This document shows, one piece after another, positions 5,581 to 6,509 of a stretch of 64,000 bases of DNA. A program made the position numbers and the translations under genes. This DNA comes from Terriglobia bacterium (lineage in GTDB: Bacteria > Acidobacteriota > Terriglobia > JAJPHL01): NCBI GenBank assembly GCA_021325275.1, contig JAJPHL010000019.1, positions 1-64,000 of the forward strand, written 5' to 3'. The notes under the pieces were generated by a model. It saw nothing but the letters and a program-made list of their open reading frames with translations. It did no database searches and had not been told where the DNA came from. Within the stretch, counting starts at the first letter, position 1. Every line of letters begins with the position of its first letter.

Positions 5581-5916
5581 ATGGCCATCGAACTCACACC
5601 GAACGCCGTTCGCTCCATCCGCAAGACGATGGAGCAGCAGCATATGGAAGGCTTGCGCCTGGGCGTGCAAGGCGGCGGATGCACGGGACTGAGCTACGTG
5701 GTGCGTTTTGAAACGCGTCCGCCCACGGCGAAAGACAACGTCATTGAACGGGAAGGTGCGCGCGTCTTCGTCGATCCCAAGAGCTATCCTTTTCTCGACG
5801 GCCTCGTTCTCGACTATCACGAAACACTGATGGAACGCGGCTTCCGCTTCGACAATCCCAACGCCACGAAGACTTGCGGTTGTGGAACGTCATTCGAAGT
5901 GGCTCCGCGCAACTAA
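5581..5916 (+). CDS. A-type Fe-S cluster carrier (IscA/ErpA/HesB family)
   Basis: The 111-residue protein is an A-type carrier that accepts an iron-sulfur cluster from the assembly machinery and hands it to apoproteins. The three cluster cysteines are present: Cys34 (in GGGCTGLSY) and Cys99 and Cys101 (in TCGCGTSF). It directly follows iscS, which supports the role; no IscU or SufBCD gene is in the window. TAAAAT at 5569-5574, inside the end of iscS, lies six bases before the ATG, so an internal leaderless start is possible besides read-through from iscS. Whether it is IscA, ErpA or SufA cannot be decided from sequence. Confidence 0.9.
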   Translation: MAIELTPNAVRSIRKTMEQQHMEGLRLGVQGGGCTGLSYVVRFETRPPTAKDNVIEREGARVFVDPKSYPFLDGLVLDYHETLMERGFRFDNPNATKTCGCGTSFEVAPRN

Positions 5917-5921
5917 TCCGC

Positions 5922-6281
5922 GTGAGTGCCCATCGCATCAAAACCTACTCCGCCGCGTCCGGCTACGTTTACCAATACGCTTTCCAGATATCTCGCCGCG
6001 CCCGCCGGGGATTTTTCACGCCGGGCACCGAGCACATCTTCGAAGTGTCGCGCGATCGCAAGACAAACTACCCGCTAGCGGTTTTTGTGCGCGACGACGC
6101 GGTGCAAGCGTGGAACAAAACGCATGGACGGGAACTGAGTCCTTCCGAGTGCTACGCGGCGGCCAAGATGCGATTGTTTCAAGTCTTCGATGCCCTCGAC
6201 GATCCGGATCGCGAAGCTGAAGCGCCGATCGTCGACGCGAAGAACATCGAAGAGTTGCTGTCCTCATTGGACATTTCTTGA
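5922..6281 (+). CDS. Conserved-looking hypothetical protein downstream of isc genes
   Basis: I do not recognise this 119-residue protein. It has no signal peptide or membrane segment. The N-terminal half is rich in aromatic and basic residues (SGYVYQYAFQ, RRARRGFF) and the C-terminal third is acidic (DALDDPDREAEAPIVD, then an EELLSSLDIS tail). I chose the GTG at 5922 because it begins just after the iscA stop; the open frame extends to 5874 inside iscA. Codon use matches its neighbours and the five-base gap suggests co-transcription with iscS and the A-type carrier, so a link to Fe-S assembly or to sulfur transfer is possible but not shown. Confidence 0.65.
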   Translation: MSAHRIKTYSAASGYVYQYAFQISRRARRGFFTPGTEHIFEVSRDRKTNYPLAVFVRDDAVQAWNKTHGRELSPSECYAAAKMRLFQVFDALDDPDREAEAPIVDAKNIEELLSSLDIS

Positions 6282-6314: not shown

Positions 6315-6350
6315 CTTTGGGCCTCGCCGTGTTTGCAGCGAGGCCCAAAG
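6315..6350. terminator. Perfect 13-bp stem terminator
   Basis: CTTTGGGCCTCGC (6315-6327) pairs perfectly with GCGAGGCCCAAAG (6338-6350) across a ten-base loop. It lies between the plus-strand isc cluster and the minus-strand 14-residue peptide gene, which converge here, so it can serve both directions. Confidence 0.75.
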
Positions 6351-6378
6351 GTGATTCACTCTGAATCGTGTAGAGCCG

Positions 6379-6423
6379 CTACTTCTTCTTCTTCGCGGCC
6401 TTCTTTGCAGGCTTCTTTGCCAT
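6379..6423 (-). CDS. 14-residue lysine/alanine peptide (MAKKPAKKAAKKKK)
   Basis: This tiny open frame reads MAKKPAKKAAKKKK and stop; an in-frame TAG lies three codons upstream, so it is not the tail of a longer frame. Nine of 14 residues are lysine and the rest are alanine, proline and the initiator. It has all the parts of an independent gene: a consensus-like promoter (TTGACT, 17 bases, TATACA), a purine-rich AGGAAAGGGAG before the ATG, and a strong hairpin downstream. The composition recalls the C-terminal tails of histone H1-like and HU-like proteins, so nucleic-acid binding is a fair guess, but nothing in the sequence proves translation or function. It is far below usual gene-calling limits. 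Confidence 0.55.
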   Translation of the reverse strand: MAKKPAKKAAKKKK

Positions 6424-6480
6424 TGTGTTCTATTCTCCCTTTCCTCAAGCGATTGATTGCTTCGCTCGAAGCTGTCTCAA

Positions 6481-6509
6481 TGTATAAAGTCAGTCGCGAG
6501 ATAAGTCAA
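6481..6509 (-). promoter_or_regulatory. Sigma-70-type promoter of the lysine-rich peptide gene
   Basis: On the minus strand TTGACT (6504-6509) and TATACA (6481-6486) are separated by 17 bases. This is one of the best promoter matches in the window. The predicted leader is about 50 bases and holds a small GCTTC/GAAGC hairpin before the purine-rich ribosome-binding region. Confidence 0.7.

Follow-up and report, generated by a model that had tools for sequence, protein, structure and literature searches.

On the minus strand of the window (the whole stretch of 64,000 nucleotides of DNA analysed here) lies a micro-gene with its own promoter, leader and terminator, the coordinates of which are collected in Table 1. 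Upstream, a gene for a TPR protein lies on the same strand; past the terminator there is a convergent open reading frame (ORF; 5874-6281, plus strand), which is positioned downstream of an IscA-like gene and has no Pfam match. The parts named in a preliminary description of this DNA, i.e. an in-frame stop, a purine-rich ribosome site, a TTGACT-17-TATACA promoter, a 14-residue ORF and a 13 bp stem, are all present in the layout given there. The -10 element and the ATG are separated by 57 bases, and the AGGGAG ribosome site sits inside the purine-rich stretch GAGGAAAGGGAG. Folding of the transcript from position 6474, taken as the presumed start because it lies seven bases after the -10 element, predicts a 10 bp hairpin at the 5' end and, at the 3' end, the terminator, whose stem was picked up independently by a terminator scan, according to which it has 15 pairs. 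The promoter is absent from the listing of a simple promoter scan, because the rule applied requires the -10 element to end in T. It is validated instead by the invariance of TTGAC and TATA in an alignment of relatives (A1), and by the matching of the window to models that were blind to it.

Table 1. Features of the micro-gene in the window
Feature	Position	Strand	Basis
-35 element TTGACT	6504..6509	minus	sequence; TTGAC invariant in 39 relatives (A1)
-10 element TATACA, 17-base spacer	6481..6486	minus	sequence; TATA invariant in A1
Hairpin at presumed mRNA 5' end, 10 pairs, 9-base loop	6443..6471	minus	RNAfold prediction for the window
Ribosome-binding site AGGGAG within AGGGAGAATAG	6435..6440	minus	sequence; AGGGAGAA.AG invariant in A2
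In-frame stop TAG just 5' of the start	6432-6430	minus	sequence
Micro-ORF MAKKPAKKAAKKKK, 14 residues (ATG at 6423 and 13 codons, then TAG)	6379..6423	minus	sequence; family-wide purifying selection
Intrinsic terminator CTTTGGGCCTCGC/GCGAGGCCCAAAG, 13 perfect pairs, then TGTTTTC	6315..6350	minus	terminator scan, fold

Relatives of this unit were found by searching at the DNA level. The other genome of the window's own order (two genomes were searched) contains a free-standing MKKTAKKAAKKKGK with TTGACA-17-TATACA upstream, and Lys-rich matches were numerous when 299 genomes of the class were searched. Many of these loci share one layout, consisting of promoter, hairpin, GGGAGAAT, ORF (e.g. MATKKAAKKATKKAAKKKK, MATKKKAKKKKKH or MKNATKKAAKKATKKAAKKAPAKKKK) and G+C-rich terminator, with a promoter spacer of 17-18 in nearly all relatives. 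Matches representing the ends of longer Lys-rich proteins were left out of the family; L003, the second match in the window's own genome, likewise marks where a longer Lys-rich ORF ends, and it lacks the unit layout. A strict pattern search of 399 genomes gave no matches beyond the window and the beginning of a single long protein; variation within the family, both in length and in the spacing of its repeats, accounts for this.

Two models were constructed from relatives alone. R1 extends from the -35 element to codon 8, uses sequence only, and draws on 39 loci from two other families, excluding the window and its order-mate. It nevertheless matches the window with 36.1 bits (E = 6.8e-10), as its sole match in the whole genome (E = 4.9e-8). 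R2 comprises only the promoter and leader, was built from a single family (f10; this and similar handles are anonymous family labels), and ends before the start codon, so that it is blind to the peptide. Its match to the window (36.9 bits, E = 2e-5) finishes at 6425, two bases before the ATG at 6423. Hence the promoter, 5' leader and GGGAGAAT ribosome site of the window are recognised by models never shown it, and directly after this leader the window has a micro-ORF of the 12-32-residue Lys/Ala type closed by a terminator stem. A broad alignment across classes (A4) was too poor to yield a model and was not used.

The same layout was seen in hundreds of genomes, usually as a single copy. In f10, which belongs to the window's class, R2 detects the unit in 108 of 120 genomes (84 of the 88 good ones) and nearly always once; in f5, of the same class, 60 of 61 genomes are positive with R1, including all 46 of the good ones, and the ORF is present in all 20 loci read. 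All seven genomes of f71, a family of another class, carry the unit, and further free-standing members occur in f34, f83 and f64. A correctly placed Lys-rich micro-ORF was found in 70 of 70 loci read from the R2 search (L173-L242), 67 of them being scored by script and three by eye. Judged by these sequence matches, hardly any genome in the well-sampled families of the phylum appears to lack a member of the unit family. The preliminary description was thus correct in calling the gene free-standing, but it is not isolated, being one of a family of equally tiny genes. In f71 (L137, L141, L142, L267 and L268), a second Lys-rich micro-ORF lies a few hundred bases away, with its own ribosome site and terminator and no obvious consensus promoter.

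The surroundings of the unit are much less constant, as its place in the genome changes from family to family. A conserved linkage to the TPR gene was rejected, because no micro-ORF lies beside the TPR relative in any of the seven genomes that carry one, and the position next to iscA, suggested earlier as a guide to relatives, does not hold, since the neighbours differ between families.

The collection comprises 131 distinct units encoding 105 peptides of 12-32 residues, with a composition of 51% K, 35% A, 7% T and 4% P and a total of four acidic residues. The second residue is Ala in 114 of the 131 units, the final two are KK, KH or KR in 128, and Lys is encoded by AAG 1016 times and AAA 302 times. 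Among 100 same-length pairs, pS is 0.52 and pN 0.067, giving a ratio of 0.128 in frame versus 1.28 and 3.12 when the frame is shifted. The pairs lack independence, and some non-synonymous change is trimmed by the requirement that units be Lys-rich. For units retrieved by the ORF-blind model, pN/pS is 0.122 (141 pairs) versus 1.67 and 1.87. This contrast between frames is too large for the Lys-rich requirement alone, and the frame of the micro-ORF is therefore under purifying selection. What is selected is the composition, the first residues (MATKK or MKNATKK) and the Lys, His or Arg end; length and the number of repeats drift by whole-codon steps, and few positions beyond the ends are conserved. 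A chance ORF is ruled out by this recurrence with selection on the frame, and a fragment of a longer protein by the in-frame stop just upstream and the free-standing state of relatives. Almost certainly, then, this is a translated and selected gene. The comparisons give strong support to the earlier claim that a free-standing poly-lysine peptide has a complete transcription unit of its own: promoter, frame and terminator are conserved, and the frame evolves as protein-coding sequence.

Several longer ORFs resemble the micro-ORF in part. In family f3 (L027:1471-1608 and L099), a similar ORF has 45-57 residues of AKKTAKKA repeats, from which it follows that the repeat number can expand. An 86-residue protein in L038 starts with MATKKAAKKSTKKAA behind a similar AAAGGGAGAAT ribosome site, which suggests that the start of the micro-ORF can become part of a larger gene by fusion or derive from one by copying. 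Longer H1-like proteins of f10 (L020, L022, L046, L064 and L073) have a Lys/Ala tail with LATKKAAKK..., which is almost the micro-peptide itself.

The RNA also carries conserved features. A perfect stem of at least six pairs lies 3' of the stop in 117 of the 131 units, against 8.6 expected from shuffles, and 100 of these 117 stems are followed within 12 bases by four or more T. RNAalifold returned no structure on A1, because of gaps in the leader, and the 5' hairpin was subsequently counted explicitly on alignment A2. Here 90% of cells are paired and changes on both sides are observed at six of eight pairs; the 18 double-changed cells compare with 8.4 in shuffles (0 of 500 as high) and exceed every slid control. 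As the hairpin begins about eight bases past the -10 element, it lies at or adjoining the presumed first base. The 5' end of a message is the classical position for a hairpin that protects against 5'-end-dependent decay, and the hairpin probably serves to protect the mRNA of the micro-gene. Between stop and terminator, the motif AGGCAA, often as AAGGCAAC and sometimes present twice, is found in 41 of 117 units (e.g. L034, L036 and L056) against 1.4 in shuffles; it also precedes the terminator of longer H1-like genes (L020, L022 and L046), and may be either an RNA-binding site or a pre-terminator motif used generally in that family.

Nine genomes from three lineages (genus g22, one species; g59, six; g49, two; L153-L161) have no Lys-rich frame at the unit and retain the promoter, hairpin, ribosome site and a terminator that is still well paired. 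As the frame has been lost and the rest of the unit kept, the peptide is dispensable in these three lineages and the RNA may matter in itself. The foremost rival explanation is accordingly a dual-function RNA, in which the transcript is also or mainly regulatory, its 5' hairpin and 3' region being functional and the peptide a second product. The covariation of the 5' hairpin and the excess of AGGCAA, a motif that also persists in the ORF-less L155 and L159, would agree with this, although the hairpin and terminator equally fit plain protection of an mRNA, and neither the window nor 10 loci of relatives has an Rfam match. Wherever the frame is present, it is under strong selection at the protein level. 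Furthermore, the scores of the four ORF-less genomes included in the R2 sample lie near 42 bits, where most others reach 60-90; this would be expected of units decaying once the peptide has been lost. In L155 and L159 the remains of a broken frame are visible with the start codon gone. A lysine frame lost while promoter and hairpin persist had been named beforehand as the sign of a small RNA; such loss does occur, but in these three lineages only, as against 70 of 70 ORF-blind loci with the frame. A dual function thus seems unlikely, though it is the least unlikely of the rivals.

Slightly less probable is a ribosome- or RNA-associated basic peptide, i.e. a clade-specific accessory ribosomal protein. 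The size, charge, single copy, near-universality and strong housekeeping-type promoter would all fit. The proteins bTHX, bS22 and eL41 are small basic ribosomal proteins that are similarly very short and very basic, but these have fixed, specific sequences; the micro-peptides vary freely in length (12-32 residues) and repeat number, unlike something fitted to an rRNA pocket, match no known family, and show no synteny with ribosomal-protein genes. A factor for polyphosphate granules or another polyanion condensate follows at a clearly lower level of probability: the H1-like tail of AlgP, which is of similar composition, is needed for granule spacing (PMC9239181), but in AlgP and PhaF the tail is accompanied by a separate domain, and nothing links the micro-gene to polyphosphate genes. 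A terminator hairpin placed behind a short Lys-rich ORF is also reminiscent of a leader peptide or attenuator, for instance a lysine-responsive one, controlling the following gene. However, the next ORF past the terminator in the window is convergent, leaving no co-directional gene behind it, and the downstream genes of relatives differ in kind and strand; this convergent neighbour and unconserved gene order exclude a leader peptide in practice.

The best explanation, with a probability of roughly 60%, is a dedicated single-gene transcription unit that would make a very short, polycationic, nucleic-acid-binding protein. A consensus sigma-70-type promoter would drive a short transcript composed of a 5' hairpin, a strong ribosome site, a Lys/Ala(/Thr/Pro) ORF and a 3' intrinsic terminator, the hairpins at both ends stabilising the mRNA such that the peptide becomes abundant. 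The peptide has neither a membrane segment nor a signal sequence. With a charge of about +0.5 per residue and no hydrophobic core, it would be disordered, or helical only on a polyanion, and it may bind DNA and/or RNA largely irrespective of sequence, as do the tails of linker histones, AlgP and HupB, thereby tuning the compaction of the nucleoid or of ribonucleoproteins. Nucleic-acid binding is, by analogy with these tails, probably its main role, and it is from the parallels with AlgP and HupB that the reading as a free-standing linker-histone-like tail derives. Of the earlier term 'histone-tail-like', the likeness in composition stands, while DNA binding would follow by analogy. A polycation of 12-14 residues should bind only weakly on its own, and a partner or high abundance would therefore be needed; many of these genomes also have longer Lys/Ala-rich proteins, which could do the DNA-binding work instead.

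A wider claim, to which somewhat less than an even chance is given, is that this is a near-universal core gene of the phylum, encoding a free-standing, linker-histone-tail-like peptide of 12-32 residues, which would be a minimal nucleoid or ribonucleoprotein component of a new kind and among the shortest conserved bacterial protein genes, with an end-protected mRNA that is maybe functional itself. A gene below the usual length for gene callers does appear to be near-universal in several families of a large phylum, and should the peptide prove to coat DNA or RNA, it would represent a natural linker-histone tail working without any folded domain. The locus also illustrates that micro-genes can be found via their control elements, the promoter and leader, rather than via their product, and it is well suited to testing, as it offers one small locus, one synthetic peptide and a strong, conserved promoter.

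The kinds of component involved, microproteins and H1-like tails, are already known, and chlamydial HctA and HctB are further examples of proteins with H1-like Lys/Ala/Pro tails. No match was found in Pfam or NCBIfam for four longer relatives, nor among PDB sequences; in the open-access literature, no paper contains MATKKAAKK and none joins Acidobacteriota, Ribo-seq and small proteins. As far as is testable within the databases and open-access literature searched, a near-universal gene that is nothing but tail is hence undescribed. Among microproteins and dual-function RNAs, VcdRP of Vibrio cholerae is similar in that a short transcript contains a very short ORF, which encodes the 29-residue VcdP (PMC8672173). 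The unit described here differs in its polycationic product and its near-universal, single-copy distribution over several families, and no sequence relation is expected. Among H1-like tails, DNA binding in vitro has been shown for KPAA-repeat peptides of AlgP, a protein whose tail also positions polyphosphate granules (PMC9239181), and HupB depends on its PAKK/KAAK tail to bind DNA stably in the cell (PMC5676037). The likeness to AlgP, PhaF and HupB lies in the low-complexity Lys/Ala/Pro/Thr composition, the PAKK, KAAK and KKAAKK motifs and the near lack of acidic residues. By contrast, the N-terminal domain of the AlgP and HupB type, whether HU-like or helical, is missing from the micro-gene product, which has 14 residues in all in the window and 12-32 across the family, and which is all tail, expressed from its own promoter and ended by its own terminator.
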